The notes below the pieces were generated by a model. That model worked only from the letters and a program-made list of their open reading frames with translations. It was not told the DNA's origin and did no database searches. A program made the position numbers and the translations under genes. From an uncultured Saprospiraceae bacterium (GTDB lineage: Bacteria; Bacteroidota; Bacteroidia; Chitinophagales; Saprospiraceae), in the NCBI GenBank assembly GCA_937930025.1, contig CALGJW010000391.1, positions 1 through 34,039 of the forward strand: a DNA stretch of 34,039 nucleotides, written 5' to 3'. Shown here piece by piece: positions 5,025 to 34,039 of the stretch. Each line of letters begins with the position of its first letter. The stretch's first letter is position 1.

Positions 5025-5475
5025 CTGTCTTTTTTATCAGTTTAGTTTCTTTAATAACAATGTCATGCGAAAACGCTTTGCACATATCATAAATTGTCAA
5101 TGCAGCAACGCTAGCTCCAGTGAGCGCTTCCATCTCCACGCCTGTCTTCGAAGTAATTTTAGCAATACAATCAATTTGTACTTCGCGATTTTCGTTTAAT
5201 ACAATATCCACTTTACAACTATCCAACCCAAGTGGATGACAAAGTGGAATCAAATCACTGGTCTTTTTTGCGGCCATTACCCCAGCCAAAATAGCTGTTT
5301 GAAAAACCGGCCCTTTTTTCGTTTGAATATCTTTTCCTTCAAAAAATGTCAGCACTTCTTCGCTCACAACAACAATGGAACGAGCATGTGCAGTTCTTGC
5401 AGTTACCTTTTTATCGCTTACATCCACCATGGAAGGGTTGTCAGAAGCGTCCAAATGTGTAAATTTATTTGCCAT
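4996..5475 (-). CDS. moaC: Cyclic pyranopterin monophosphate synthase MoaC
   Basis: 159 aa; MVDVSDK, TARTAHARS, LIPLCHPLGLDSCKVDI, GVEMEALTGASVAALTIYDMCKA motifs. 3' end overlaps the start of the MobA-like gene by 29 nt. Confidence 0.95.
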   Translation of the reverse strand: MANKFTHLDASDNPSMVDVSDKKVTARTAHARSIVVVSEEVLTFFEGKDIQTKKGPVFQTAILAGVMAAKKTSDLIPLCHPLGLDSCKVDIVLNENREVQIDCIAKITSKTGVEMEALTGASVAALTIYDMCKAFSHDIVIKETKLIKKTGGKSDYQSA

Positions 5476-5549
5476 TATATTGAATTGACCATAAAGATAA
5501 GGGTCTTTTTGATTGTTGTGTAGTTTATACCTTTAGGGATAGAATAATA

Positions 5550-6677
5550 ATGAAAGAACAAAAGCTCAGTAAATCCGAATACGCCAGATATCATCGGCAC
5601 CTAATTATGCCCGAATTTAATTTGGAGGCACAACTTGCGCTTAAGAACGCCAAGGTGTTGGTCGTCGGCGCGGGCGGTCTAGGTGCGCCGGTACTTCAAT
5701 ACTTGGCTGCCGCCGGAGTTGGAACTATTGGCATTGCGGATTATGATACGATTGAGCTTTCGAATCTTCAACGGCAAATTTTGTTTGCGACAGTAGATGT
5801 AGGAAAGTATAAGGCGGAAGTTGCCAAGGATCGCATCTTAGCCATGAATCCGAATATTGAAGTTCGCGTTATTCTAGAAAAAGTCACTGCTGAAAATGCG
5901 CTGGAAATTTTAGTCCCTTATGATGTCATTCTGGATGGTTCCGATAATTTTCCTACTCGGTATTTAATCAATGATGCTTGTTACTTATTAAAAAAGATAA
6001 ATGTCTTTGGATCGATCTTTCGCTTTGAAGGCCAGTTGGCGGTTTTTAATTATGAGGAAAAAAGTGGCTTGCGTTCCGCTAACTATAGGGATATTTTTCC
6101 GGAGCCACCCGCTCCGGGCATGGTGCCAAATTGTGCAGAGGCTGGCGTGTTAGGTGTACTTCCGGGCATCATCGGAGCGATGCAAGCTAATGAGGCGATT
6201 AAAGTCATCACTGGGATTGGTGAACCCTTGGTTAATAAGTTATTAGTAATGGATAGTTTGTCAAATACCCAGCATGTATTGAAGATCAGTAAGCAAAAGG
6301 ACAATCCGCTTTCTGGAGAAAACCCAACGCTTACATCGCTGATCGATTACGAAGAATTCTGCGGTATTACTTCCAATGATGATTTAGTTAATATTAATGA
6401 AATCACTCCCGGAGAATTTATTGCCTTAAAAAATAGCAAAGAAGAATTTCAACTTATTGATGTTCGTGAAAAAAGTGAATATGAAATTTCAAACCTCAAC
6501 GGACTTTTGATTCCTTTGAGTGAGTTAGAAAATCATGTGGATAAAATCAATCGACAAGGGATGGTGATTATTCATTGTCAATCGGGGAAGCGAAGTGCGG
6601 CTGCGATTGAGCGATTACAGCGGGAGTTTGGGTTTTCGAATTTGGTTAATTTGGAGGGGGGAATTTTTGCCAATTAG
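5550..6677 (+). CDS. moeB: Molybdopterin-synthase adenylyltransferase MoeB/ThiF family with C-terminal rhodanese domain
   Basis: 375 aa; VVGAGGLGAPVLQYLAAAGVGTIGIADYDTIELSNLQRQILF nucleotide-binding motif; C-terminal IIHCQSGKRS rhodanese active-site loop. Confidence 0.88.
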   Translation: MKEQKLSKSEYARYHRHLIMPEFNLEAQLALKNAKVLVVGAGGLGAPVLQYLAAAGVGTIGIADYDTIELSNLQRQILFATVDVGKYKAEVAKDRILAMNPNIEVRVILEKVTAENALEILVPYDVILDGSDNFPTRYLINDACYLLKKINVFGSIFRFEGQLAVFNYEEKSGLRSANYRDIFPEPPAPGMVPNCAEAGVLGVLPGIIGAMQANEAIKVITGIGEPLVNKLLVMDSLSNTQHVLKISKQKDNPLSGENPTLTSLIDYEEFCGITSNDDLVNINEITPGEFIALKNSKEEFQLIDVREKSEYEISNLNGLLIPLSELENHVDKINRQGMVIIHCQSGKRSAAAIERLQREFGFSNLVNLEGGIFAN

Positions 6678-6931
6678 TTCAAGCCACCAAAGGTCGCTAG
6701 GTTGTCCGCGGCGCAAGGCGAAATATCGTACATTTAATAAGTTCAATTGTTTAATGACCCAATTCGCAATGCGGCAATTGCCTACGACTCAAAGTCGAAT
6801 TTCGTAAATGAGTAGCTAATATAACACCAACAACCAGGTCCTAATATAAGACAATGAAATACAATTAATTTGTTATATTAGCATAGCAATAGAAAAATTA
6901 ATTTGGGCTCGCTAAGTGATTTAACCTCTAC

Positions 6932-7678
6932 ATGAAAATTTATTATAAAATTCTATCAATATTATTTTTGTTCCTGATAACAATTGTCAGCACGCATGCT
7001 CAAAGAAGTGTAAAAAAGCCTGCGAAAAAGGGCTTCAATTTGAGCATCCAAAGTGGGCGATTCTTCATTGATAAAAGTAAAACTGACCTAAGTGCTTATA
7101 ATTATAAAAATAAAAACATACGAGAATCCATTAAAACAGGATTGTTTATTCGAAAAGCCTTGAACAGAAGATTAAACGTAACACTCAATCCACAAATTGG
7201 CTTTAACTTTCACAGAACTCTGGATTATAAATATCTCTCTCCTTACTTTGGTTTTAATCGTCCTGATCCAAAAGAATATGTCCTTACCTATGATTATTAT
7301 GATGTCAATATTAAAAGTTTCGATTTCCTCTCTACAATTATTGTGGATTTCGAAATATTCAAATTCATTTATTTCGACATATTGATAGGCATTAAATACG
7401 ACCCATCCTTAACCTTTGAATTATCAAATAATACTGCATATATAATTTCCAAGGATAGAGATCAAGATAATAATGAAATCTACTATGCCAAAACTTCTCC
7501 CGAGAATTATTCTCTGTCTAGAGAAAGCTATAGTTTAAACCACGGAATCCAATTTACGGTAGGAGTCAAATTTGAAAAAATCCAAATTGACGTAGGCATG
7601 GGCGGAGGTTCAGGTATCAATAAAAGCGGTTTTGGTGTACTTTCGGTCTATTATAAATTAGATGGTCTGGAAATATAA
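6932..7678 (+). CDS. Predicted outer-membrane beta-barrel-like protein, function unknown
   Basis: 248 aa; signal peptide MKIYYKILSILFLFLITIVSTHAQ; alternating aromatic beta-rich sequence. Confidence 0.6.
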   Translation: MKIYYKILSILFLFLITIVSTHAQRSVKKPAKKGFNLSIQSGRFFIDKSKTDLSAYNYKNKNIRESIKTGLFIRKALNRRLNVTLNPQIGFNFHRTLDYKYLSPYFGFNRPDPKEYVLTYDYYDVNIKSFDFLSTIIVDFEIFKFIYFDILIGIKYDPSLTFELSNNTAYIISKDRDQDNNEIYYAKTSPENYSLSRESYSLNHGIQFTVGVKFEKIQIDVGMGGGSGINKSGFGVLSVYYKLDGLEI

Positions 7679-8359
7679 TTAACTCACCTTATCTTGCTTC
7701 AACCGAATAATCTCCGACAAATGCGTATAAATCACAATCGGCACGACAATCGCCGGAAGCAAAACAAATGGAAAATAAAGTAGCGCAATATTAGGTTGAT
7801 CAAATCCAAATTGCTGGAATGGAGTTGGCACTGAAAAAATACCGTTGACCAAAATGAAAAGTATTAAACCAAGCCCAAGGAAGTTCCAAATCAAAAGTAT
7901 ACGGCGAGACATTTTCCCTTTGTAAAATAAGAACCCAATGATAGGCGCAGTGGTGCCTGCTAGAATATCAAAATTACGACCATGGAAGCTCATCAATTCT
8001 GGTACTGCTCCATTTAGGAATAAGTACAGTAATACAATTTCAACAGGAATTCTAATGGTGTGCAGAAAGGTGATGAGATTTGTATTTCTATTTTTCACTA
8101 CCCACTCGATTTGCTTAGGTAGGCAGCCATAAATGATAAGCACTAGATTTGGCAATAGAATAAAAGCGATCCTAGGTGGAAAGCCATCTAATGTCAGATA
8201 AAACGAACTATAAGCAAGCAAGGATTGGATGACTCCGATGACTACTATTGCTAGGGTCAATTTTTTTGGGTTGCCATGAGTGATATGAAAGAAAACAATC
8301 GTAAATATTGCAACGACTAAAAATATAATAGAAATCCAGTTGGGCAATCCTTCTATCAT
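7679..8359 (-). CDS. Hypothetical multi-pass membrane protein
   Basis: 226 aa; about 6-7 hydrophobic segments; convergent with the preceding ORF with directly abutting stops. Confidence 0.65.
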   Translation of the reverse strand: MIEGLPNWISIIFLVVAIFTIVFFHITHGNPKKLTLAIVVIGVIQSLLAYSSFYLTLDGFPPRIAFILLPNLVLIIYGCLPKQIEWVVKNRNTNLITFLHTIRIPVEIVLLYLFLNGAVPELMSFHGRNFDILAGTTAPIIGFLFYKGKMSRRILLIWNFLGLGLILFILVNGIFSVPTPFQQFGFDQPNIALLYFPFVLLPAIVVPIVIYTHLSEIIRLKQDKVS

Positions 8360-8500
8360 GATGTACGCTTTAAAAATTTTTCAATAAATTATGTATTATT
8401 TGAAATAAGGCCATACGTCAAAAATACGTTGCCGTTTTCTAGAGATCTTCAGGTTGTATGTCACCTTGACATTAGAATAACGTATAGGTAGCCACGAATT

Positions 8501-8530
8501 TCACTAATTAACACTAATTAACACTAATTC
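8501..8530. repeat. Short tandem repeat, about three copies of 10 bp (a/t)cactaatt(a/c)
   Basis: tcactaatta acactaatta acactaattc; flanked by recurring (g)ccacgaattt words at 8491 and ~8558. Confidence 0.7.
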
Positions 8531-8790
8531 GAAAAACGTTAAAAAGGCGCAAAATGGCCACGAATTTATTGCTGCGCAATTGCTAATTTTCACGAATTCA
8601 GAACCTGTCGAATCACGCAAATGTCTGAAGTAGGATTTTGTAGAAATAGATTCTCGGATAAGATTTTACGAAAATGTAAATATTCTTTTTATCCCAGAAA
8701 AGAATTAATTCAATCTAAATCACGCCTACGTCATTCGAAACTTTTGATCTCGCCTGGCGGCCAGACAGGCTTTTTAGATTTTGACTTTCT

Positions 8791-9636
8791 CTAAAAATCC
8801 AACGCAAAGCCCAGTTCCTTTCCTTTTTGAACTAAGGCTTCCGGTAACTCTTTATCATGCTTTAGATAGTTACTGTAGTAGCCAGATGGCCTGGCTCTTA
8901 AACATCGATTCAAATCATTGCAGTACTTCATGTTGTCGGTAACGATATTGAAGTAGGCAAATTTATCATAGTCCTCTCTTTTCGCCTTTGGTGTCGAACC
9001 TTTATGATCAATACGGATATCCAATAGAACGATGTCACCCTTTTTAGAAGGAACCCTTGTGAGCTTGGGATGATTTTCCAATTTATCGTAAAAGGAAATA
9101 CCCAACATTTTTTGAAGCTTCAAAAATGCACGTTGCAACATGTTCATGTGTGCCACTTTATGGTGCTGATCTTCTTTGTCCTTGTGGCTCCCTGGAGCAA
9201 CGGTTATTCCTCCGCCATAAACATCATCATTATCTTGAAAGTACATGGCTGCCATGATCGCATTGAAGTCATCATTCCAATGAAATTTTTCTCCTTGTTC
9301 ATCCAAGAAGGAAGAATCTTTATGCCAAAAGTAAAATCGATTCCTATGTATAGCTGGCTCAGGAAGGACCACCATTTTTTCCCCAAACAAATCTTTAAAG
9401 ACTTGAACATAGCGTTCCGTAAACATCAGCTCAATTAGCTCAGGCATGGTCCTGAATACATCAGTGGTAACGCCTTCGTTAGCATAAGGCGCAGATTCCC
9501 AGGTGCCGTCTTTCAAGGCCTGGGCCATCAATTCTCGGATACGATCGATGGACGCAGGAGTATAAACCTGAGGAACATGCAAAAATCCTTCTCGGAAATA
9601 ATGATCAATCTGACTTTGTGTAAGTATGGATGGCAT
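8791..9636 (-). CDS. Phytanoyl-CoA dioxygenase (PhyH) family protein
   Basis: 281 aa; HKDSSF (HxD), AMYFQDNDDVYGGGITVAPGSHK, distal DIRIDHKGS. Confidence 0.85.
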   Translation of the reverse strand: MPSILTQSQIDHYFREGFLHVPQVYTPASIDRIRELMAQALKDGTWESAPYANEGVTTDVFRTMPELIELMFTERYVQVFKDLFGEKMVVLPEPAIHRNRFYFWHKDSSFLDEQGEKFHWNDDFNAIMAAMYFQDNDDVYGGGITVAPGSHKDKEDQHHKVAHMNMLQRAFLKLQKMLGISFYDKLENHPKLTRVPSKKGDIVLLDIRIDHKGSTPKAKREDYDKFAYFNIVTDNMKYCNDLNRCLRARPSGYYSNYLKHDKELPEALVQKGKELGFALDF

Positions 9637-10119
9637 AACAGGGAAATTTCGATGGTAAATATAGGCAGGATTTCAGGATTTGCATGGGAGTTTTGCCCTA
9701 AACAAAGGAATTGCAATCAACTGCTCAATTCTATAGGATTTACAAATGCTATTTCCATTAACCCTTTCAACATTTAACCGTATCTTCACATTACGAAAAA
9801 AAAGAATATTGTCTTTTTTTTAACATTCCTATCAGGAACCGTGCAAGCAAATCGAATTACGACTACAGGAAATTTTATTGGACAAGACAAACCAACAGGC
9901 TATTAGTCAGGTTTAAACGAAATGATTTTTTTCATAATTGTAACCTTATCTGTTGGGTAAACTAGGAAATCGAAGCTAAAATTTTTAGTAGCTGAGATAT
10001 TCACAAGTTTTCCACATCAACCAATAGGTTTACTAACAATCAAATTTTTCAAACCGATTTTGAATCACCAAATTTAAAGCTAGTTTTGAGCTCGGAAAAA
10101 CGACGACCAACGCAACACT

Positions 10120-11631
10120 ATGGCAGATACCAATCAAATCAAAAAGCTTCGGGACGATCCTAGAAACGGATCTACTAATGACCTGACGAACTATGTTTTC
10201 GGAAAGGTTCAACCACAGGCGTTGCCGCTGGAGGAGGCTGTTTTGGGGGCTATCATGCTAGACAAGGACGCACTAGCAGTTGTACTTGATATTCTTCAAC
10301 CCGAATCATTTTATTCTGAGGGGAACCAAAAGATCTTTCGAGTGATGCTCGAGTTATTTGAGAAGACACAGCCAGTCGATCTTTTGACGGTAACTGAATC
10401 CTTGAAAAAGAAAGGAGAACTAGACGTAGTAGGTGGACCTTATTATCTTGTCGATCTAACGAACAAAGTTGCCTCTGCCGCAAACATTGAATATCATGCA
10501 CGTATAATTTCTCAGAAACATATTCAAAGAGAACTGATCTCTGTTTCCACGCGAACCATTAAAGATGCTTACGAAGATACCACTGATGTCTTCGATCTTT
10601 TAGATTCTGCGGAGCAAGGCTTGTTTGATATCACTCAGCAAAATCTTTCCCGTAGTTACGAGAAGATGAGTACGCTAGCAGGACAGGCATTAAAAAGACT
10701 GGAAGAGCTTTCGGAAAAAGATGAAGGGCTGACCGGTGTTCCATCTGGATTTACCGAATTAGATCGATTAACTTCCGGGTGGCAGCAGTCGGATTTGATT
10801 ATCGTGGCAGCTCGTCCAGGTATGGGAAAAACCTCCTTCACCTTGGCAGTGGCTAGAAATGCCGCTATGGATTTCAATAAACCCGTGGCTTTTTTCTCCT
10901 TAGAGATGTCCTCCATACAATTGGCGCAACGTCTGATTTCCATGGAAGCCGAAATTACTGGTTCCAAGTTAAGAGATGGAAAATTAGATGACGACGATTG
11001 GAAGAACGTGCACTCCGCAGTAGAGAAAGTTGGAGAAGCACCCATCTTCATCGATGATACACCAGGTATCAATATTTTCGAATTACGTGCAAAATGCCGT
11101 CGTTTGAAAATGCAACATGATATTCAATTAGTGATGATCGATTACTTACAATTGATGACCGCCGGAGCCACGAACAAGCAAGGAAATCGAGAACAAGAGA
11201 TATCTGCTATTTCAAGAGCATTAAAAGGAATGGCCAAGGAATTAAATATTCCTGTGATTGCACTTTCGCAGTTGTCTCGGGCAGTGGAAATGAGAGGAGG
11301 AGATAAGCGACCAATGCTTTCTGACCTTCGGGAATCTGGAGCGATTGAGCAGGATGCAGATATTGTTTCCTTTATCTATCGTCCGGAGTATTATCAAATA
11401 CTAGAAGACGAAGAAGGAAATTCCATGAAAGGTGTGGGTGAAATTATAGTGGCCAAACACAGGAATGGTGCGACGGACACCGTTAAACTTAGATTTATCG
11501 ATTACTGCGCAAAATTCACCAATCTGGACGATCCCAACTTCAGCGATCTTTCGGACACTACTTACAATAATAACAATCCCAATATCATCACCATGCCTTC
11601 TCGTATCAACGATGAGGATGTTCCATTTTAG
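10120..11631 (+). CDS. dnaB: Replicative DNA helicase DnaB
   Basis: 503 aa; VLGAIMLDKDAL N-domain; AARPGMGKTSFTLAVARNAA Walker A; MIDYLQLM Walker B; SRALKGMAKELNIPVIALSQLSR; RPMLSDLRESGAIEQDAD. Confidence 0.97.
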   Translation: MADTNQIKKLRDDPRNGSTNDLTNYVFGKVQPQALPLEEAVLGAIMLDKDALAVVLDILQPESFYSEGNQKIFRVMLELFEKTQPVDLLTVTESLKKKGELDVVGGPYYLVDLTNKVASAANIEYHARIISQKHIQRELISVSTRTIKDAYEDTTDVFDLLDSAEQGLFDITQQNLSRSYEKMSTLAGQALKRLEELSEKDEGLTGVPSGFTELDRLTSGWQQSDLIIVAARPGMGKTSFTLAVARNAAMDFNKPVAFFSLEMSSIQLAQRLISMEAEITGSKLRDGKLDDDDWKNVHSAVEKVGEAPIFIDDTPGINIFELRAKCRRLKMQHDIQLVMIDYLQLMTAGATNKQGNREQEISAISRALKGMAKELNIPVIALSQLSRAVEMRGGDKRPMLSDLRESGAIEQDADIVSFIYRPEYYQILEDEEGNSMKGVGEIIVAKHRNGATDTVKLRFIDYCAKFTNLDDPNFSDLSDTTYNNNNPNIITMPSRINDEDVPF

Positions 11632-11639
11632 CAATAACT

Positions 11640-12371
11640 ATGTCTGAAGAGCAAGAAGCTGGAATGCGACTAAACAAATATGTCGCGCATTGTGGACTAG
11701 GTTCCAGACGGAAGGCTGCCGATTGGGTGAAGGCTGGAAAAGTAAAAGTAAATGGCGCAGTAGAAATCAATCCAGCGATATTAGTCAAAGAAGGAGATAT
11801 CGTAGAATACGGCGGAAAAGTGATCACTCCTGAGAAAAATTTGGTTTACATATTGATGAATAAGCCCAAGAATACCATCACTACCATGGATGATGAAAAA
11901 GGGCGTACGACAGTGATGGATATATTAAAGGGAAAAATTGAAGAACGCATTTTCCCTGTAGGTCGATTAGATAGAGATACCGTTGGATTATTGATGTTGA
12001 CGAACGATGGTGATTTGGCCAAACGTTTGACTCACCCAAGTCATGAAGTTTCTAAAGTTTACGAGGCTGTTTTGGATAAAGAACTTTCGGAAGCTGATTT
12101 CAATAAAATAAAGGCGGGTCAAGATTTAGAAGATGGTCGAGCAGATGTGGATTGGATCAATTATCCAGACCCTAAGAATAAAAAAATAGCTCGCTTGGAA
12201 ATTCACATTGGTCGCAATAGAATAGTGCGACGCATTTTTAAGGAAGTGGGTTATACCGTTGTCAAGTTAGATCGTATTTATTTCGCGGGCTTGACCAAGA
12301 AGCATTTGGCTCGAGGGCGTTGGCGACATCTGACGAAGGAAGAGGTTGGGAAATTGAAGCATTTTTCGTAA
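11640..12371 (+). CDS. rRNA pseudouridine synthase, RluB/RsuA family
   Basis: 243 aa; S4 domain MRLNKYVAHCGLGSRRKAADWVKAGKVKVNG; catalytic GRLDRDTVGLLMLTNDG; GRNRIVRRIF. Confidence 0.92.
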   Translation: MSEEQEAGMRLNKYVAHCGLGSRRKAADWVKAGKVKVNGAVEINPAILVKEGDIVEYGGKVITPEKNLVYILMNKPKNTITTMDDEKGRTTVMDILKGKIEERIFPVGRLDRDTVGLLMLTNDGDLAKRLTHPSHEVSKVYEAVLDKELSEADFNKIKAGQDLEDGRADVDWINYPDPKNKKIARLEIHIGRNRIVRRIFKEVGYTVVKLDRIYFAGLTKKHLARGRWRHLTKEEVGKLKHFS

Positions 12372-12699
12372 CGCTTACTGGAGTCTTAAAAATGAAGCCT
12401 AGTTCATTATAAACTAGGACTTCTTTCCAGGCGTAAATAATCTAAAAACAGGGTTTTTTAGGGTGTTCAAGGGGTTTGTTAATTTTAAGTTGATTCGTTT
12501 GGATTAAATGTTACCCTTGGTTTTATTTTATTTCTTTGAAAAGCAACTTATTTACGAAATACGATTTACGATTTCGAAAATACGGTGATCGAAAATGCGT
12601 AGATGTTTGAATTTAAAAATCCTAATTCTGACGATTTCACGTGATTGTCTGAATTGGGTTCGTTGGGATTATAGGATTGGGGTTGATTGCGCGGGTTAC

Positions 12700-12757
12700 A
12701 CGAACCCACACCTTGTAGAGACGCAAAGCATTGCGTCTCTACAAGGTGTGGGTTCGT
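12700..12757. repeat. Perfect 27-bp inverted repeat with 4-nt loop (REP-like hairpin)
   Basis: acgaacccacaccttgtagagacgcaa-agca-ttgcgtctctacaaggtgtgggttcgt; arms are exact reverse complements; no T-run follows. Confidence 0.9.
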
Positions 12758-12911
12758 AAATCGTGGGATTCCCCTAGGTCCAATTACCCTATGTTTGTAA
12801 TTTCGAAATTAGGTCGTTGGTATTATTCTACATTGGAAACACGCTATTCGGTATTGCTCCGCAGGAATTGAACTAATTGCTGCGAAGCAAATTGCGGCAA
12901 AGGCAATTGAA

Positions 12912-13559
12912 CTAAACATTCAAATATTTCCTAACCGCCCCCACCCTATTATTCACCTCCAGTTTTTTATAAATCTTATACGTCAATGACTTCACCGTAT
13001 TTTCGGAAATATTGAGCCTTTTGCTGATCTCCTTATTTAGATATCCGACCGCTATTAAGTCCAATACTTCAATCTCTCTCGGCGTCAATTTTTTGATCTT
13101 CAATAATTCTTCCATGGGTTGCTTGAATTTTTCAAGCATTGCATTCATCAACTTTGGACTTAGAATGAATTGCGATTTTTGAATTTGGTCAATAATTTCA
13201 AAAGGTGCTTTTTCAAATTCTGATTTTAAAATCAAAGCGCTGGAACCAAATTTCAAACATTCATACACAACCTTTAAATTCAATTTATCTAGGACCAAGA
13301 AAAATTTTAGCCTTGGAAATTCTTGCAATTGCTTTAGCATTACATCCAGTGCATATTTTTCATCACTAGTTGTTTTTAAATAAAAAAGAATAATCAAATT
13401 GTCCGGATCAAAAGTTGGTTCCGTGAGTGTTAAGCTTAAGTGCGATTTAAGCACCAAATGAATCTTTGTGTGAGGGATAACCTGTGCACAGAGCCAACTA
13501 CAAAATTGCTTATCGTTGGAAACTAACAGAATCTGTTGGCTTGGCTTTTTGGGATTCAC
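12912..13559 (-). CDS. LuxR-type response-regulator-like transcription factor with degenerate receiver-like domain
   Basis: 215 aa; C-terminal KKLTPREIEVLDLIAVGYLNKEISKRLNISENTVKSLTYKIYKKLEV; N-terminal receiver-like fold without an obvious phospho-acceptor Asp. Confidence 0.82.
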   Translation of the reverse strand: MNPKKPSQQILLVSNDKQFCSWLCAQVIPHTKIHLVLKSHLSLTLTEPTFDPDNLIILFYLKTTSDEKYALDVMLKQLQEFPRLKFFLVLDKLNLKVVYECLKFGSSALILKSEFEKAPFEIIDQIQKSQFILSPKLMNAMLEKFKQPMEELLKIKKLTPREIEVLDLIAVGYLNKEISKRLNISENTVKSLTYKIYKKLEVNNRVGAVRKYLNV

Positions 13560-13657
13560 TGGGCTTATTTAAAATATCGAAGCCTGCGACACACGCCTCT
13601 TTAATAGGTTGAAAAATCAAGACAAATCGTTACCTATATTTTGAGAAAAAGTAGTGC

Positions 13658-14347
13658 TTATTTGCAATCGGTTGAAACCTGGGAGATTTCTGCCTTAGAT
13701 TGGAAAGCCTGGGTTAGGGTAAATAAACATTCGTAATTTTTGTATTTACTCTTTAGAAATAATTTCCCCGCCTCTTCATACTTTTCTTGTTGGCCTTGTT
13801 GGCCCTGTTGGAACAAAGCATGGGCTAGCCAAAAATTAGCTTCAGCCGTTTTGAAAAAATCAGGTTGTGTTTCAAGGAATGTGCGAAGGGTTGTTTCACT
13901 TTTTACGAAGTCGTTTAATTCAAAATAATATTTGCCTTGAGAGAATAAATCAAGAGTGCTTACATCCGTAGAGCGAACTTTATCTTCATAGATCGGTCGC
14001 TCATAGAAGGCGTATAGCGCTTCGCTATCTACAGCTGGATTGAAACTTTTTTGTACGATAAAATAGGCAATCACTAAAACAAGTAAAGCTGCTGCCATAT
14101 ATAGCCACTTGCGATTATATCCTCTTGAGACTTTTAGTTTTTGAACTTCATTGCCATACACCTTCTGCTTCACCTGAGCCAATAGCTCTTGTTCCAAGAT
14201 ATCTTCTGAAAGAGTATTAACCGCCTTGTAGTTTTTCACTACATTCATTGCATCAGAGTTTTCTTTTAACAAAGCTTCAAACTTTGCTTTCTCAGACTCG
14301 GACAATTGTCCAGCCATATATTGATCTATGTAGTCTGCTATATTCAT
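13658..14347 (-). CDS. Putative anti-sigma-like single-TM protein with TPR-like C-terminal domain
   Basis: Preferred start MNIADYIDQYMAGQLSESEKAKFE at 14347 (the track ORF starts at 14410); ATGA overlap with the sigma-factor stop; TM segment WLYMAAALLVLVIAYFIV; TPR-like C-terminus. Confidence 0.75.
   Translation of the reverse strand: MNIADYIDQYMAGQLSESEKAKFEALLKENSDAMNVVKNYKAVNTLSEDILEQELLAQVKQKVYGNEVQKLKVSRGYNRKWLYMAAALLVLVIAYFIVQKSFNPAVDSEALYAFYERPIYEDKVRSTDVSTLDLFSQGKYYFELNDFVKSETTLRTFLETQPDFFKTAEANFWLAHALFQQGQQGQQEKYEEAGKLFLKSKYKNYECLFTLTQAFQSKAEISQVSTDCK
13786..13812. repeat. Three tandem 9-bp units (cttgttggc) inside the anti-sigma/TPR-like gene
   Basis: cttgttggc cttgttggc cctgttgga, encoding QQGQQGQ on the minus strand. 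Confidence 0.8.
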
Positions 14348-14961
14348 AGTGACAATAGATTTTTGAGTTGCGGATGTTCTTCCAAATAATTCGAAAGTTC
14401 CTTCATACAATTGTACTTCTTCTTCCGTACCATCCCTTCACTCTTATAATTCAACTGTGTTGCAATTTCAGCCATTTTGAAATTAGATGCCCAAAGCATC
14501 AAAACTTCTTTGCAATTTTTCCCCAACTTACTCAATACCTTATCCAAGTTCTCCGATCGCTCCTCTTCTATTAACCGCAAGTCCACCGAAGGAGTTTCAT
14601 CTTTTAGGTTAAAATCTTCTGGCAGTTCCCTTGGCAATTTATTGCGCTTTCGCAATTCCTGCACCCAAAGGTTTCTAGCAATTCCAGCTAGATAGTTATT
14701 CAAGCTCCCATTAATGGTCAGCTCTTTATTCTTCATGACCGTCTTCAAAAACTGCACAAGCGTAAAGCTCAGGATAGAACGAAAGTCCTCTTCCGATCCA
14801 TTACCCACCCTTAGTATTTTCTTTATGGTATTTTGAAGATGTTGGTCATCATACAACTGTGCAATGATTCTATCGCGGCCGGCAGTACCGGAACGAATGG
14901 AGTTGATCATTTCACTAAGTTGCATCGCTTTGTCTGAGGTTATGTTAGACTTTGAGGTCAA
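14344..14961 (-). CDS. Sigma-70 family (ECF-like) RNA polymerase sigma factor
   Basis: 205 aa; region 2-like LNNYLAGIARNLWVQELRKRNK; region 4-like LSKLGKNCKEVLMLWASNFKMAEIATQLNYKSEGMVRKKKYNCMKEL. Confidence 0.82.
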   Translation of the reverse strand: MTSKSNITSDKAMQLSEMINSIRSGTAGRDRIIAQLYDDQHLQNTIKKILRVGNGSEEDFRSILSFTLVQFLKTVMKNKELTINGSLNNYLAGIARNLWVQELRKRNKLPRELPEDFNLKDETPSVDLRLIEEERSENLDKVLSKLGKNCKEVLMLWASNFKMAEIATQLNYKSEGMVRKKKYNCMKELSNYLEEHPQLKNLLSL

Positions 14962-15086
14962 AGTGTTCCCTTTGGGAGCAAGATAATAAATGATTGGGAA
15001 AAACTTTAGTTTACTGTTATATACAAATCGTTGATGGATAAAGGATTTTGGGGGATAAAAAAAAATGGCTGTTTTTAAATAATGAA

Positions 15087-15175
15087 TTAATTTAAGTAGA
15101 CATTGGGGTTTCCCTCCAGGACGAAGCCTGCCCAGTCTTTTAGGGTGTAGTTGGGGATTGATTTGGAAATTTGGC
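15087..15175 (-). pseudogene. Remnant of a second CHAT gene C-terminus
   Basis: Minus strand encodes SIPNYTLKDWAGFVLEGNPNVYLN*, near-identical to the intact CHAT end SDPNYSLKDWAGFVLEGNPNVFLK*; an in-frame stop precedes it and no upstream ORF remains. Confidence 0.85.
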
Positions 15176-15253
15176 CATCCTAGTTTTGGAAATCGGCAAA
15201 TAACATGTAGCTTAGTTGTTGTAGAATTTGTTTTACCTCAAAAATCAAATCAA

Positions 15254-15622
15254 ATGAAAATTGCATTTACCATTCTTTTATTGTTCGCCTTATTATCGTC
15301 ACCGAGCAAAAGTGAGATTATTGAAAATGTAGTATATCATCAAAAAATTTGTTACAAAAAGCTGGACAAAAATTTAAGTGACAACAAAGACTTTAAATTG
15401 ATCATATCCATTCCGGAAGAAGGCATTTTCAATGCTTCCTATTCCTGTCCGCAATCCACTTATATCAAAGCAAAAAATATTTCTGCACTCCGACCAAACG
15501 GTTCAGAAGTTTTTGCATTAATATGGGGTGATGCTATATTTGATCTTGATATTTGCCATATACATGATGACAAAACTATAGAATGCGGGGAACCGCTAAA
15601 AGTATCCCCTGACTCATTTTAG
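15254..15622 (+). CDS. Small predicted secreted protein of unknown function
   Basis: Preferred start MKIAFTILLLFALLSSPSKS at 15254 (the track ORF starts at 15158, inside the CHAT remnant); C-terminus CHIHDDKTIECGEP; stop overlaps the convergent CHAT stop. Confidence 0.65.
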   Translation: MKIAFTILLLFALLSSPSKSEIIENVVYHQKICYKKLDKNLSDNKDFKLIISIPEEGIFNASYSCPQSTYIKAKNISALRPNGSEVFALIWGDAIFDLDICHIHDDKTIECGEPLKVSPDSF

Positions 15623-18190
15623 AAAGACATTGGGATTTCCTTCTAAAACGAAGCCTGCCCAATCTTTAAGGGAATAGTTGGGATCTGATTCAAATTTTTC
15701 GCGGGTTTGATTGATCGCATCTCCTAAAGAGATTCCCTTATTCCAATTAGTATATAGGTCTACCATGAAATCTTTGGTGGCTGAGTCGTCGACTTTCCAG
15801 AGGGTTTTGATGATGGTTTGGGTGCCGTTTTGCATGAAGGCGCGGGAGATGGAATAGGTTCCTTTGCCGTTTTTATGTACCCCGATGCCAGTGTCACATG
15901 CGGATAGGATCACAACTTTTGGCGCGGCGTTCATGGCTTCGATTTCGTAGGTGTAAAGTTTTTTTGCTTTGCCGTTTTCATCGCGAAGGACGATGTAGTT
16001 ATCAAGTCGGTTGTCTAGATTGGTGGCAGCGTGAGCGGAGATGTGATATAAGTCTGATGCTAGATTATTCTGGAAATTTGTGGTGGTGAAGTTTGGGCCG
16101 GTGAAGTATTGGTTGTTGTTATTGGAGTTTAATATTTGGGATATTTCTTTGGTTTCTTGGAATCCGTAGTTGAGTTCTTGGTGGATGCGTCGGGAGTTGT
16201 CGGCTAATGTAGAGCTGTCGGTGTATGAAAAATTCGTGAATGTTTGTTTATCCAAATTTACTTCATGACGGTCTAGATATTCGATTAGGCTATGTTCTAC
16301 ATTGACTGATTTGAAATCTTTGAAAATATATTCTAAAGGTAGGCTACTAAAGACGCCATCGGGAATGATGACCAAATCTTTTCCGATTTCCAGGGGGATG
16401 TTCTTTCTTATTTCTTTTCTTAATTGTTGAACTACATTTTGAAAAGGAAGGTTTTTATGTATAAGACTATCCAGTTGTTGAGAAAGTTTGATAATTGAAG
16501 TCCCGTCGAATTCGAAGGCATGGAGGCTGTTGTTAGATACTAGATATCCAAAATAAAGATTCCTAAATGACAATAGATTTAATATTTGACCTTTATTACT
16601 AAGAACGTCACTTACTTTCCTTTTATCAATCTTGAATTCATTGAGCTCAAAGACAGGGGCACTGTAATTTTCATACTCCTCGAAAACAGATTCAAATATT
16701 TCCTGATAGATCGGATCTCTAAAATTAGTATTAAAATCAAATTCATTAATTTTTCTTAATAATTCCTTTTTTTTATTCCTTTTTTTATCAACTGTTTGAA
16801 TCTTTCCCAAAGCATAACGAACCAAAACATCACTAGATTTTGAAGATTCAAATATTTCTATCAATTTCTTTAAAATTGAAACTTCTGATACATTCTCAGC
16901 AACAAATAAGGAGTATATCCTTAAAGTGTTTTCCACCAAATAATCAACCTGATGTTCAATGTCGGTTTCATTTATCTCCACCCCAATTTTCCTTTCTCTT
17001 AGTAACATATTCATTAGGGAGTCCTGTGATGCTTCAGGATGAAGCAAATCAAAATAACTGGACATAATAATAGAATTCACATAATCATATTCCTTTATTA
17101 CCGCAATGTCACAAGTTTTATAACTCAATGCTTTTTTATTCCAAAAATTCATCGAGTCCAAAAGATTCATCTCTGCATAAGTCATCGCCAAATAATTTTG
17201 AATTATTTTTTTATGATAATTGCATTCATTGGTCTTAAGAATACTTTCAGCAGCGAGAAAATATTTTAAAGATTGTTTGGTGTTTTTGAAAAACTCCTTT
17301 TCTCCATTTTCTGCGAGCAGACCATATTTTAAAGAAAGGCTAACATTAAATTTTAAAATTCTATCCACATCTAGAGAATTTGATGCCGTCCCTTTGGTTT
17401 GAATAAATTCGGCCACACAAAGGCTTGTTTCTCCCCAATTGTTGTTTTTATAAATTTCAATAGCCTTTAACAAATGCTTATTAATAATTTCTAAAGCTAT
17501 TTGACCTGTTTTTATCAAATCAATAGAACGTTGAAAAATAAGATTAGCCTTAGTTAAAGGAAACAATTTCCGGTCTTCCCTTTTTTCAATTAGGTAAAGA
17601 CCCAGACCTGTTAATGCCATCTGAAGTTCAAAACTATGAGAACCATCTAATTTACCAGAGAGATTTTTCAACCCATTGACAAAAAATTTCAAATCAACAG
17701 GATCTAATGATTTTTGGTACTGCTTTTTAATGAAAGAAAGATGAGCCGTTCTGTTTCTTCCAAGAATACTACTTTCTAACCAAAAGTATTCGAAAGGATA
17801 AGAACTTGAAAGATTAAATATACTGTTCAGTGAATCTAGTTTTACTGAGGCTTTGTTTAAATTTAATTTGTCAATTTCCTTTTTAACTGCGAACAGATCA
17901 CGAAATGGGAATTGTTGTGAATTTAGAAATATTTTTTTATCATTACTAAATAAACTTGCACGCAACCATTGCTCATTAATTGGATCTCCAGAATTAAGTA
18001 CTGAGTCCAACGATTTTTTTGCCTGATCAGTCCTATTTTGTTCTAGCAAAGTTATATAATTTGTGACCTGTTCAGGATAGGATTTCTTGAATTTACCATT
18101 GCAACTATATAATCCGACAAACAGAACAAATCCAATAACAGCTGTATTCGATTCGAAAAGTATCCGAAAGAAGAATTTGAATTCCGTCAA
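15614..18190 (-). CDS. CHAT-domain (caspase-like) protease, predicted lipoprotein
   Basis: 858 aa; C-terminal CHAT signatures DLYHISAHAATN (His) and VVILSACDTGIGVHKNGKGTYSISRAFMQNG (Cys); N-terminal hydrophobic stretch ending in lipobox-like GLYSC; helical, TPR-like middle. Confidence 0.88.
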   Translation of the reverse strand: MTEFKFFFRILFESNTAVIGFVLFVGLYSCNGKFKKSYPEQVTNYITLLEQNRTDQAKKSLDSVLNSGDPINEQWLRASLFSNDKKIFLNSQQFPFRDLFAVKKEIDKLNLNKASVKLDSLNSIFNLSSSYPFEYFWLESSILGRNRTAHLSFIKKQYQKSLDPVDLKFFVNGLKNLSGKLDGSHSFELQMALTGLGLYLIEKREDRKLFPLTKANLIFQRSIDLIKTGQIALEIINKHLLKAIEIYKNNNWGETSLCVAEFIQTKGTASNSLDVDRILKFNVSLSLKYGLLAENGEKEFFKNTKQSLKYFLAAESILKTNECNYHKKIIQNYLAMTYAEMNLLDSMNFWNKKALSYKTCDIAVIKEYDYVNSIIMSSYFDLLHPEASQDSLMNMLLRERKIGVEINETDIEHQVDYLVENTLRIYSLFVAENVSEVSILKKLIEIFESSKSSDVLVRYALGKIQTVDKKRNKKKELLRKINEFDFNTNFRDPIYQEIFESVFEEYENYSAPVFELNEFKIDKRKVSDVLSNKGQILNLLSFRNLYFGYLVSNNSLHAFEFDGTSIIKLSQQLDSLIHKNLPFQNVVQQLRKEIRKNIPLEIGKDLVIIPDGVFSSLPLEYIFKDFKSVNVEHSLIEYLDRHEVNLDKQTFTNFSYTDSSTLADNSRRIHQELNYGFQETKEISQILNSNNNNQYFTGPNFTTTNFQNNLASDLYHISAHAATNLDNRLDNYIVLRDENGKAKKLYTYEIEAMNAAPKVVILSACDTGIGVHKNGKGTYSISRAFMQNGTQTIIKTLWKVDDSATKDFMVDLYTNWNKGISLGDAINQTREKFESDPNYSLKDWAGFVLEGNPNVFLK

Positions 18191-18342
18191 ATATGTAGGT
18201 TATTTACAATTCCAAACATTAAAAATACCATAAATAAAGTAATCTATAATTCATTTTCCCTGAAAATATTTCAAATAAATTAAAATGCGGGTAACACTTT
18301 AGTTTATATAACCAACTTAATTATCGAACAAACAAAATCAAA

Positions 18343-19017
18343 ATGAAAACAAAATTTAATTTTATCGAATTTGCAATAATACTTATTGCAATCCTATTTT
18401 TTCAAAGTTGCTGTTCTCCAGAATGTTGCGAAACATGCCCTTCTAAATGCGAAGAAAGTATCGAATTCAATGGCGATTACATTGAAGGAGTAGTTTTTTC
18501 CGAAACAGCGGATGGAGAATATGCCCTAATCCAAGTAAATTCTTCCATAGAAGATTCCTACTTTTTCTTATGCGATGAATCAAAAATAAAAACGAAAAAT
18601 TTCGGAGAGCCTTTTTGGTTTAAAGCTTATAAAAAAGCTAACATCTACTATGCGAGAGAAATAGAAAATTTGGACCCATCAATTACGGGAAAAGGCAAAC
18701 TTTTCAAAGGGCCGGTAAAAACCTCTCTTGACTTCCATGGCTTTCGAAATGAACGCCATACAAATAATAGACATAGAAAATTTCACCTAGTGAGCATCGG
18801 ATCGAATAACGTAATAATTAAAGAACTTGACAGCAATGGCAACCCGGTTGCTCCCAATATTACAAAGAACGCAACTGCATCGGCAATTGAAAATGCCATG
18901 GAAAATAATTACTCAGGCAAAAATGTTTATATCGAGGAAAATGAAAGTGCTTTAGTGGTTGAAATAGAAAGATGTCATATTCATGCAGATCAAACAACAC
19001 CATTCTGCGCACATTAA
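18343..19017 (+). CDS. Cys-rich predicted lipoprotein of unknown function
   Basis: 224 aa; signal ...IILIAILFFQSC followed by CSPECCETCPSKCEES; C-terminus CHIHADQTTPFCAH. Confidence 0.7.
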   Translation: MKTKFNFIEFAIILIAILFFQSCCSPECCETCPSKCEESIEFNGDYIEGVVFSETADGEYALIQVNSSIEDSYFFLCDESKIKTKNFGEPFWFKAYKKANIYYAREIENLDPSITGKGKLFKGPVKTSLDFHGFRNERHTNNRHRKFHLVSIGSNNVIIKELDSNGNPVAPNITKNATASAIENAMENNYSGKNVYIEENESALVVEIERCHIHADQTTPFCAH

Positions 19018-19028
19018 AAACAAATACA

Positions 19029-20156
19029 ATGAAAAGCTACATTATATTATTATTTCTTTTGACTAGTTTCCAAGGTTTCGCAATTGAAGAATCTTCAAAT
19101 TGTCAACCTGATTTAAATAACTTAACACTTGTATACTACTTTAATCCCAATCTAAACAATGGCAACGTAATTAGCTTGTCGGATATGACAAACACCGCAG
19201 TAACAGCGGCTGGTTATTTACAAGCGCTTATACAAAATTTGGGAATAGGAAGTATTGCCTTTAATGGAGGAGGAAAGGCAAGAAAACTATTCCATGGAAA
19301 CAATTTTGCTGAATTTTTCCAAGATCATGAATATTGTTCATGCAATGAGTTGCGAGTATATATTTCAAATGTCCCATTTGCAACAACAGGCCCAAAGTAT
19401 TATTTAAAAGGTGCTGGAAATTTCATTTACTTACCTTATGAAGACAGGAATCACCCAATAGTCTTACTTCATGAAACCATTCACTGGTTATTTGGGCAAC
19501 TAGATGGTATTAATTACGGAGAAAATGAATCCCATGTAACCAATATTAATCAAATTGAAGGAGTTTTACTGCCTAATAAAAATGGCTGCATGAACCTTAT
19601 GTATAAAGATGATATTGCACCTTTAAATTTTCTCCTAAGTAAACATCAGCAAAAGATCATCAATCATAAAACCCCTGACGCTGGTTGCGATCCAGACGAT
19701 GACGAAAGTTGTTTTTATCAAAAGATACCCTTTGATATAATTAATCAATTTGATTTAGAAAGAGATCTTTGCTGTCAATCAATATCTAGATCTCATGTTT
19801 TAGCCACAATACAAACAATAGGTGTCGGAATAATTACTTATAAGCAGGCTGCTCAATGGTTGGAAACATACGCTCATGGCCAATGCATGCTAGATACACA
19901 AGCAGCAAAAAGGGTTTCTAAAGTAGATAAGAGTAAGTTTTCTTTAGAACAACATACCTTCATGAAAAAGGTATTAATTGATTTATATGTTGAAAGTAAA
20001 GAATTCAACAAATTGCTTACAGTTGAAAGGGACTACTTAAACAAAATTGTAATTGATCCTAAAATTCAACTTGATAAGGATTATGTCGAATCGCGAAAAG
20101 CGGTCATAAGAAGAAATCTTTACAAGAGGGATATGATCAAAGAAAAAAATAGATAA
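19029..20156 (+). CDS. Predicted secreted metzincin-like zinc metallopeptidase
   Basis: Preferred start MKSYIILLFLLTSFQGFA at 19029 (the track ORF starts at 18972); LLHETIHWLFGQLDG (HExxH) and downstream CMNLMYKDD resembling a Met-turn. Confidence 0.65.
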   Translation: MKSYIILLFLLTSFQGFAIEESSNCQPDLNNLTLVYYFNPNLNNGNVISLSDMTNTAVTAAGYLQALIQNLGIGSIAFNGGGKARKLFHGNNFAEFFQDHEYCSCNELRVYISNVPFATTGPKYYLKGAGNFIYLPYEDRNHPIVLLHETIHWLFGQLDGINYGENESHVTNINQIEGVLLPNKNGCMNLMYKDDIAPLNFLLSKHQQKIINHKTPDAGCDPDDDESCFYQKIPFDIINQFDLERDLCCQSISRSHVLATIQTIGVGIITYKQAAQWLETYAHGQCMLDTQAAKRVSKVDKSKFSLEQHTFMKKVLIDLYVESKEFNKLLTVERDYLNKIVIDPKIQLDKDYVESRKAVIRRNLYKRDMIKEKNR

Positions 20157-20169
20157 AACCTTTAGAACA

Positions 20170-20200
20170 AACAAGGCTGACATTCCTCGTCAGCCTTGTT
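20170..20200 (+). terminator. Strong hairpin, likely terminator of the 18343-20156 transcription unit
   Basis: aacaaggctgac-attcctc-gtcagccttgtt perfect 12-bp stem; short T-run. Confidence 0.65.
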
Positions 20201-20481
20201 TCATTCAACCCTACCTGTATTAATTCGTAATACCTTCAAGAAAATGGTATTGAGTTGTCCCAACAACATGTCCGTTCCGAAGTCGTTTATCCTGAACTAA
20301 AACACTTTCCAATTCCTCCCGGTCTTATTCACCTTCCCATAGACGTTTTATAAATTGAAATATCAATAATCATCACCCTGCTTTCCTACGTCCAACTTTC
20401 GATATCATTCCATCCTTCTTTCCCACTCCACGAATCCCAAAACCAACTTTTCCGTATATTCATTCTCCAAAACTTTCCAAA

Positions 20482-22611
20482 ATGAAATGCAAAGCTATAT
20501 TTCTCCTTCTTATATCAACACTCGCTCTCAAAGCCCAAGACGCCTACCACCAATCCCTCCTAGATCAACTACAAAACGACTATTACATCACAGGTGGAAC
20601 TTGGACCCTAAGCCCTGACGCAGAAGCCATTATGACCAATGCTTGGAGCTATGGAGATGACCCATTTCAGGTGATTCCTGCCTCAAATCAGACCTTCACG
20701 ACTAAAACTTCCGTGAATATCACCACCGAATACGAAAACCACTGGAACGCTGGCTGGGGAATCGGGATTGAAAATGCGATCAATGAAAATGATGTTTGCT
20801 TGATGGTTTTTTGGGCCAGAGCGGCAAGCGGGAATGAAGGTAGATTAAGTGCCTTTGTTGAAAACTCCATCACCTACTACAAAGAAGTGTACACCACTTT
20901 TCCTGTTGGCAATGAGTGGAGGCAATATATTTATGCATTTGAATCTGGTAATTCTTATGATGTGGATGGACTTCAGATGGGATTCCATACCGGCGCTATA
21001 CAACAACATGTGGAATATGCGGGAGTGAATATTTTGAATTATGGCAATAGTTATTCCCTAGATGATTTACCGGAAATAATAAACAATGATACTTATGGTG
21101 GGCATGAAGCGGATGCTCCTTGGCGGGCTGCTGCAGAAACGCGAATAGAAAATTTGCGAAAAGCGCCGTTAGAAATAACCGTTCAAAATGCTGCTGGAAA
21201 TCCTATGCCGAATGTCGGAGTGGGGATTGAAATGTTGCAACATGAATATGCTTTTGGAACTGCGGTGGTGTCTTGTATGTTCGCGCAGAACGATTGTCAA
21301 AATCAAATTTATGAGGACAAGCTTTTAGATTTGGATGGGGAAGGTCATGGATTTAATTGGGTGGTGTTTGAAAATGGAATGAAGTGGCCCGCATGGGAAG
21401 GTGGTTGGCCGAATTCTCAATTTGAAAAGGCGGATGCTGTTGAGTGGCTTGGAGAAAAAAATATTCAAGTACGGGGACATACCCTTTTATGGCCCGGTAG
21501 ATGGACTTTACCGAATGATGTCAGATTGAATATCGCAAATACAAACTATGTGCTGGATAGAATTGATGGTCATCTGGAAGAAATATTGGAATATCCATCT
21601 ATTAATGGTGCATTAGCCGAATGGGATGTGGTTAACGAAATCACACAAGAAAGATTCCTAGAAGATTCTCTCGCAGGCAACAATGGCTATGTAACGGGCC
21701 GTGAAATCTATGCCGAGATATTTGAAAAAACCAAGGCGCTTGATGCGGTTCCCAAGCTTTACATCAATGACTATATGACCATTTCTTCGCAACGATCCCG
21801 AGGTCCAGTTTATGATCGCTATCAACAATTCATTCAGGAAATCATCGACGCGGATGCTCCATTAGACGGTATAGGTTTTCAAGCGCATATCGGCACCTAC
21901 CCTACCTCGATCTATCAAGTGGAAACCATTCTTGATGATTTTTATGCAAAATATAATCTAACACACAAGATTACTGAATTCGATATTGACGGTACCGCGG
22001 GTGACGAAGTCGAAGCAGCTTACATGCGTGATTTTCTAACCTATGTTTTTTCACATCCTTCAACGGATGGATTTCTGATGTGGGGATTTTGGGATGGCGA
22101 ACATTGGAAGGATAATGCCCCGATGTTTGACTTGGACTGGAATTTAAAACCTTCTGGGCAGGCATTTATTGATTTGGTTTTTAAAAAATGGTGGACCAAA
22201 ACATTCAAGATCACTGACACAAATGGTCAAGTTAACCTAAGTGGATTCAAAGGTCGTTACGTGATCCAAATAAATTGCGATCAGATCATTAGGGACACCA
22301 TCGAATTGACTGGCGCAGGAAATAGTTTGAATTATCCTTGTGAAGAATTGGTGAGTATTGAGGAATTGGAATCCACTGTTATCAAAATATTTCCAAACCC
22401 TAGTTCGAGTGGAAATTCAAATTCAATTTTGGAAAGAGTGTCAACTAAACCAGCTGTCCTAAGAATTATCAATGCCAGAAGTCAGCTTGTTTTGGAGAAA
22501 AAAATCTCTGGCAAACAAATTTTATTAAACTCTCCAGAAAATTCTGGAATGTATTTTATTGAGATTCAAGAGGTCTCTGGCATCACGCGGTTGCCTTGGA
22601 TTGTAAACTAA
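20482..22611 (+). CDS. GH10 endo-1,4-beta-xylanase with N-terminal CBM-like region and C-terminal T9SS sorting domain
   Basis: 709 aa; FENGMKWPAWE, RGHTLLWPGRW, AEWDVVNE (acid/base Glu), KITEFDID (nucleophile Glu), MWGFWDGEHW; tail VIKIFPNPSSSGN...; signal peptide MKCKAIFLLLISTLALKAQ. Confidence 0.93.
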   Translation: MKCKAIFLLLISTLALKAQDAYHQSLLDQLQNDYYITGGTWTLSPDAEAIMTNAWSYGDDPFQVIPASNQTFTTKTSVNITTEYENHWNAGWGIGIENAINENDVCLMVFWARAASGNEGRLSAFVENSITYYKEVYTTFPVGNEWRQYIYAFESGNSYDVDGLQMGFHTGAIQQHVEYAGVNILNYGNSYSLDDLPEIINNDTYGGHEADAPWRAAAETRIENLRKAPLEITVQNAAGNPMPNVGVGIEMLQHEYAFGTAVVSCMFAQNDCQNQIYEDKLLDLDGEGHGFNWVVFENGMKWPAWEGGWPNSQFEKADAVEWLGEKNIQVRGHTLLWPGRWTLPNDVRLNIANTNYVLDRIDGHLEEILEYPSINGALAEWDVVNEITQERFLEDSLAGNNGYVTGREIYAEIFEKTKALDAVPKLYINDYMTISSQRSRGPVYDRYQQFIQEIIDADAPLDGIGFQAHIGTYPTSIYQVETILDDFYAKYNLTHKITEFDIDGTAGDEVEAAYMRDFLTYVFSHPSTDGFLMWGFWDGEHWKDNAPMFDLDWNLKPSGQAFIDLVFKKWWTKTFKITDTNGQVNLSGFKGRYVIQINCDQIIRDTIELTGAGNSLNYPCEELVSIEELESTVIKIFPNPSSSGNSNSILERVSTKPAVLRIINARSQLVLEKKISGKQILLNSPENSGMYFIEIQEVSGITRLPWIVN

Positions 22612-33336: not shown

Positions 33337-33379
33337 ATTTACTTTTTTTTCAATCTCTCTTTAGAGAAAAAGAAAAAAA

Positions 33380-33488
<109 letters not shown>

Positions 33489-33689
33489 AATCTTGCGGTC
33501 CTAAGACCTATTTCTTTTACATAGCTTCTTATAACTATGTTTTTGTTATCCCTATTGTATAACTCTTAAGCTATTCAATAGAATAACATTAACAAATTGG
33601 AAAAGTAGCATAACAAACAATTATCATTACAAAGTCATTCTCGTTGCGAATGAATCTTCGTATTAAGATTCTTATTTAATAATAAAAAA

Positions 33690-34039
<350 letters not shown>

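Follow-up and report, generated by a model that had tools for sequence, protein, structure and literature searches.

A set of five genes found in a 34,039-nucleotide stretch of DNA (hereafter the window), which is contig 391 of a metagenome-assembled genome of a Saprospiraceae bacterium (assembly of 5.0 Mb, 74% complete), looks like a proteolysis-linked gene switch that has so far not been described. The core of this module is composed of a CHAT-domain lipoprotein, a sigma factor of the extracytoplasmic function (ECF) type, a membrane anti-sigma factor, an exported lipoprotein, and an exported metalloprotease-like protein with an HExxH motif. A previous reading of the window, made from its letters alone (the sequence-only reading), had already proposed a signalling module in this region, and each of the open reading frames (ORFs) that it named is indeed present where it had been placed. 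This proposal is strengthened by the conserved co-occurrence of the genes in related genomes and by a promoter-like element pointing to their co-regulation, while its LuxR-type regulator and its 122-residue secreted protein cannot be kept as conserved members, nor its CHIH motif as a hallmark of the exported proteins.

Conservation of the gene set among Saprospiraceae

The one further genome of good quality in the genus contains all five genes (locus L038), with the metalloprotease-lipoprotein and CHAT-sigma-anti-sigma groups in unchanged order, and the proteins encoded there are identical to those of the window at 50% of positions for the sigma factor and at 25-29% for the other four. A CHAT profile scan of 84,980 species genomes led to four Saprospiraceae loci, which were that of the congener once more, L085 (another label for the L064 locus), L086, and L087, and a profile built from five of the lipoproteins gave access to three further complete clusters, L108 to L110. 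Genes for a CHAT protein, the lipoprotein, and an HExxH protein are clustered in eight genomes, being those of the window, L038, L064, L086, L087, L108, L109, and L110. For the window, L038, L087, L108, and L110, the sigma/anti-sigma pair is part of the cluster, and in L109 it is some 4 kb distant, which brings to six the genomes in which the trio is accompanied by its putative regulators; a lack of such co-occurrence had been named by the sequence-only reading as what would refute it. The metalloprotease genes of L087 and L086 were assigned by position, size, HExxH motif, and export signal, and not by profile score. Weak lipoprotein matches at L111 to L118, which have no CHAT neighbours, were discarded as unrelated signal-peptide similarity.

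The gene order is reshuffled among the module loci, which argues against the simple inheritance of a frozen block. In the tree of CHAT proteins, seven of the eight CHATs of the cassette group in a single supported clade, and a supported set of ten takes in all eight; besides, the six module sigma factors fall in one set of ten.

The association between such sigma factors and CHAT genes extends to loci devoid of the exported pair. When 34 loci were picked solely by similarity to the sigma factor of the window, a CHAT gene was located at most 10 kb from the sigma gene in 22 of them, compared to 1.34 expected, and in nine genomes searched with both sigma and CHAT, 20 of the 29 sigma matches lie within the same distance of a CHAT gene (0.6 expected). 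At these other loci the exported neighbours vary, with a protein carrying a type IX secretion system (T9SS) tail at L035, a thioredoxin-like protein at L053, and a trypsin-PDZ protein at L065. The first of these, on contig C445 of the same genome as the window (5241-10872), is a second sigma/anti-sigma/CHAT locus in which the T9SS-tailed secreted protein is encoded between sigma and CHAT. At L065 (genome G003, 6673-9760), the sigma/anti-sigma genes have the trypsin-PDZ (HtrA/DegS-like) protein as a neighbour and CHAT genes on either side, thereby bringing a serine and a cysteine protease into one sigma neighbourhood. Finally, L039 (genome G004, 15590-19501) harbours two sigma/anti-sigma pairs within 8 kb, one of them convergent with a CHAT gene.

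Encoded proteins and a promoter-like element

The CHAT assignment made by the sequence-only reading is confirmed by Pfam PF12770 (E=1.2e-36, 127.1 bits for a cut-off of 24, residues 587-851), and its lipoprotein nature by a lipobox. The His/Cys dyad and the lipobox cysteine are invariant among five aligned CHAT relatives, and eight module loci encode such a CHAT protein. N-terminal export signals were found in CHAT proteins. The protein is predicted to be a caspase-like protease anchored in the envelope. Its N-terminal half gave no Pfam match to tetratricopeptide repeats (TPR), so that the label TPR-CHAT is not established.

A second trace of CHAT, absent from the sequence-only reading, is located between the sigma gene and the gene for the 122-residue protein. 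Positions 15083-15163 share 78% DNA identity with 15610-15690, which form the 3' end of the CHAT coding sequence, and they are in frame and end in a stop codon; the CHAT profile independently detects this remnant (E=1.3e-7, model positions 845-869). We infer from this repeat that the CHAT gene and its divergent neighbour were duplicated in tandem and that most of one CHAT copy was then lost. The 122-residue protein may be the decayed copy of that neighbour, in other words a paralogue of the HxH lipoprotein, to which its similarity is limited to the CHIH stretch. The sequence-only reading had taken these two proteins for a pair, which was rejected as the match covers 14 residues only; the small protein, whose ORF does exist, has no relative in 101 genomes.

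The sigma factor is recognised by the NCBIfam sigma70-ECF model (45.9 bits, over the cut-off of 42.9), in agreement with its earlier designation as ECF-like. Alignments with homologues begin at ATG 14925 (that with the congener's sigma factor starts at residue 13), which is therefore likely to be the true start. The coupled gene, previously read as TPR/anti-sigma-like, encodes a protein with weak matches to the anti-sigma family NF052375 and to TPR families and with one hydrophobic segment, which 40 of 44 homologues share, ahead of a TPR-like region; it matches its counterpart in the congener with E=2e-18. In addition, the host genome contains two PF02163 matches over the cut-off, corresponding to M50 site-2 proteases.

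As for the exported proteins, neither the lipoprotein and the metalloprotease-like protein of the window nor the 122-residue protein matched any family in profile searches, single-sequence searches with the three gave nothing convincing in the 101 genomes, and searches of solved structures returned nothing meaningful. Relatives were reached only via the synteny of the congener, and then with small alignments. Across the eight lipoproteins, HxxxH and the C-terminal HxH are invariant, the latter motif being present within the last 45 residues in 4% of the ORFs of more than 200 residues from the same loci. The lipobox cysteine is found in most of them, and the cysteine ahead of HxH in three of the eight, so that the two histidine motifs, rather than CHIH, define the family; they probably form a metal site, and the HExxH protein is likewise likely to have one. 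The HExxH motif is present in all eight metalloprotease relatives and an Asn-x-Met turn in six, while a full metzincin-type motif (HELGHALGLTH) occurs only in the L087 relative, together with weak M66, reprolysin, and M10 (matrixin) matches. No member has a Pfam match over the cut-off, and the product is referred to as metalloprotease-like, its metzincin identity being unproven. Its ORF is open upstream of the likely start, from which the protein has a signal peptide.

Co-regulation of the two operons was approached with a 28-nt motif fitted on 37 sigma-gene upstream regions, all from cassette-free loci. This motif, composed of GG-N2-ACATTTT, about 9 nt, and then TAAATACAC, is found 27-36 nt ahead of the start in 12 of the 37 regions (p=9e-7). 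The match lying just before the lipoprotein gene is the best of the whole window on both strands, with a runner-up at 11.4 bits, and the one ahead of the sigma gene is weaker (p=0.03 when compared to other upstream regions). Loci L108 and L109 each carry RGGTCAC ahead of the sigma gene and again ahead of the lipoprotein gene. A co-regulation of the sigma operon and the exported pair through this candidate promoter element is supported by these data but not proven.

Table 1. Features of the module and its surroundings in the window
Feature	Coordinates	Strand	Basis or remark
LuxR/NarL-type regulator	12912-13559	-	GerE E=4e-18; receiver domain looks incomplete; not conserved beside module
Membrane anti-sigma factor, cytoplasmic N-terminus, one predicted transmembrane segment, C-terminal TPR-like domain	13658..14347	-	Overlaps sigma ORF by 4 nt
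ECF-type sigma factor	14344..14961	-	NCBIfam sigma70-ECF; likely start ATG 14925
Putative promoter for autoregulation of the sigma gene, AGGGAACACTTTGACC..., 46 nt before ATG 14925	14944..14971	-	Motif match 9.6 bits
Remnant of second CHAT gene (3'-terminal ~25 codons, NYTLKDWAGFVLEGNPNVYLN-stop)	15083..15163	-	DNA repeat, translation, CHAT profile
Small secreted protein, 122 aa, CHIH stretch at end	15254..15622	+	Known from window only
CHAT-domain lipoprotein, 858 aa, TTG start	15614..18190	-	PF12770; His720/Cys765; lipobox Cys30
Putative promoter (sigma-dependent) for the lipoprotein/metalloprotease operon, GGGTAACACTTTAGTTTATATAACCAAC	18289..18316	+	Motif match 16.2 bits
Exported lipoprotein, conserved HxxxH and C-terminal HxH (CHIH in window copy)	18343..19017	+	Congener homologue 5e-9
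Exported HExxH metalloprotease-like protein	19029..20156	+	ORF open from 18972; congener homologue 6e-8
Hairpin closing the lipoprotein/metalloprotease operon	20169..20201	+	13-nt perfect arms

Around the core, the hairpin noticed in the sequence-only reading is real, and the LuxR-type regulator is correctly identified; the latter was excluded from the module because its gene is not conserved next to it in the loci of relatives. Directly downstream of the module, a gene at 20482-22611 encodes a glycoside hydrolase of family 10 that has a weak sorting tail of the T9SS type, and the end of the contig carries the 5S rRNA and the 3' end of the 23S rRNA on the minus strand (33378-34039). Positions 12700-12757 form an inverted repeat of 27 bp (perfect, 4-nt loop), which contains GTAGAGACGCAA...TTGCGTCTCTAC, occurs once in the window, and is possibly a dispersed palindromic element.

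Possible functioning of the module

The reading that we favour, to which about an even chance can be given, is that of a Saprospiraceae envelope-signalling module in which the CHAT lipoprotein and the membrane anti-sigma factor control the ECF sigma factor, itself driving its own operon and the divergent operon of the exported pair. In such a scheme, the sigma factor would be released from the membrane anti-sigma factor by envelope stress or by CHAT cleavage. More precisely, an envelope signal would activate the exported CHAT protease, which would make the site-1 cut in the periplasmic portion of the anti-sigma factor; RseP or other general proteases would complete the degradation of the latter, and the freed sigma factor would drive both operons, leading to the production of more exported proteins. 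Since CHAT is exported and the anti-sigma factor sits in the membrane, the cysteine protease and its possible substrate would face each other on the same membrane side.

Several points weigh against this reading. Cleavage of the anti-sigma factor by CHAT is a prediction from genetic linkage, CHAT being no more than a candidate site-1 protease, and at many loci its gene and the sigma gene are arranged convergently or divergently and not as one operon. No sigma/anti-sigma gene was found within 9 kb of the trio in L064, nor in L086, whose genome (G052) has a sigma factor of the module clade on another contig; the L064 case is the one counted here. The search seed of the motif, GGTNAC, had partly been noticed in the window itself, and the likelihood of the motif (93.8) barely exceeds the null maximum (93.2), an AT-rich motif even scoring higher; the evidence for it is therefore drawn from its position and from its match in the window. 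Finally, the AlphaFold models of the lipoprotein and the metalloprotease-like protein (predicted local distance difference test scores, pLDDT, of 48 and 33) are too poor to be used.

CHAT could also be the output of the switch rather than its trigger, the TPR region of the anti-sigma factor sensing the envelope and the sigma factor inducing CHAT, the lipoprotein, and the metalloprotease, with CHAT hitting other targets as a defence or death effector. This alternative, which we consider unlikely though far from negligible, would account for CHAT not always belonging to the sigma operon, for the anti-sigma factor having a periplasmic TPR region of its own, and for the presence of RGGTCAC, in L108 and L109, between the CHAT and lipoprotein genes. 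Nevertheless, the repeated proximity of sigma/anti-sigma genes across divergent CHATs fits a constant regulatory partner at least equally well. A proteolytic cascade appears more doubtful still: CHAT would process the metalloprotease or the HxH lipoprotein, by zymogen activation or removal of an inhibitor, and the sigma factor would merely tune expression. The persistence of the trio in L064 and L086 without a nearby sigma gene speaks for it; against it, the analysis yielded no definable cleavage site or zymogen feature, and the structure models were unusable.

A chance association of the genes, or one due to genomic hitch-hiking, is very improbable. While the lack of conservation of the LuxR gene and the 122-residue protein would fit it, eight genomes contain the trio, in an order that varies, and the 22 CHAT-linked loci out of 34 contrast with 1.3 expected. 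Slighter again are the chances of a type III-E CRISPR-associated locus (Craspase/CASP) or its remnant, an idea arising from the similar kinds of partners, namely a CHAT protease, a sigma factor, and an anti-sigma factor (PMC10028731). With the Csx29 model, which has a cut-off of 300, the CHAT protein reaches 21.7 bits, and it is an exported lipoprotein; no CRISPR-type repeat was reported in 12300-20500, as the sequence-only reading had observed, and no CRISPR RNA family was detected in the window. Among anti-phage families, none matched except for a weak and implausible Cas8b match to the sigma protein, and the assignment to CRISPR or to a known anti-phage system was rejected on the basis of these searches.

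Comparison with known systems

The HExxH protein resembles the metzincins (M10, M12B, M66) by its HExxH and Met-turn-like motifs, with the canonical sequence in one relative, but its third ligand varies among module members and its Pfam scores stay under the cut-offs. At the level of the whole system, the CalpL/CalpT/CalpS cascade of type III CRISPR, in which a Lon-type protease is activated by cA4 (PMC11417357), offers a comparable trio of protease, anti-sigma factor, and ECF sigma factor, although it involves neither CHAT nor envelope components. The ECF54 group, as summarised in PMC8999054 (citing Casas-Pastor 2021), appears closer in that CHAT, subtilase, and carboxypeptidase genes belong to the genetic context of its sigma factors, with a model member from Geodermatophilus. 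According to that summary, ECF54 is proposed to operate without an anti-sigma factor, whereas the sigma factor of the present module is coupled to a conserved one by overlapping genes. Beyond CRISPR systems and the poorly known ECF54, no description of a CHAT-sigma link was found in the open-licence papers searched. Such a link is frequent across Saprospiraceae, where it comes with an exported protease, a membrane anti-sigma factor, and an exported pair that is likely driven by the sigma factor.

In type III-E CRISPR, Csx29 cleaves Csx30, the inhibitor of CASP-sigma (PMC10028731). Both there and in the module, a CHAT protease, an ECF sigma factor, and a sigma inhibitor are encoded together, and the proposed logic is that the protease relieves inhibition. 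However, the type III-E protease is cytoplasmic, guided by RNA via Cas7-11, and cuts the soluble Csx30, whereas the CHAT of the module is a lipoprotein, its anti-sigma factor spans the membrane, and neither Cas7-11 nor a CRISPR array was found with it; the likeness is best regarded as an analogy only. As a tentative extension, less secure than the switch itself, Saprospiraceae could hold a large and diversified family of envelope CHAT/ECF-sigma/anti-sigma switches, with several to each genome and exported partners that can be exchanged, of which the HxH lipoprotein/metalloprotease cassette would be one type, and type III-E CRISPR may have recruited its CHAT-sigma logic from such chromosomal modules. 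Were CHAT to cut the anti-sigma factor, it would act in bacterial envelope signalling as a site-1 protease of caspase-like type and might be the origin of the CRISPR Csx29 pathway.

The DegS/RseA/RpoE pathway is the other obvious counterpart, with an ECF sigma factor coupled to a single-pass membrane anti-sigma factor that has a periplasmic domain, and with M50 proteases in the genome, all of which are found for the module and its host. The difference lies in the candidate site-1 protease, a cysteine protease of the CHAT type here and a PDZ serine protease in the case of DegS. By analogy, the module would work like DegS/RseA or like Craspase, yet belong to neither.

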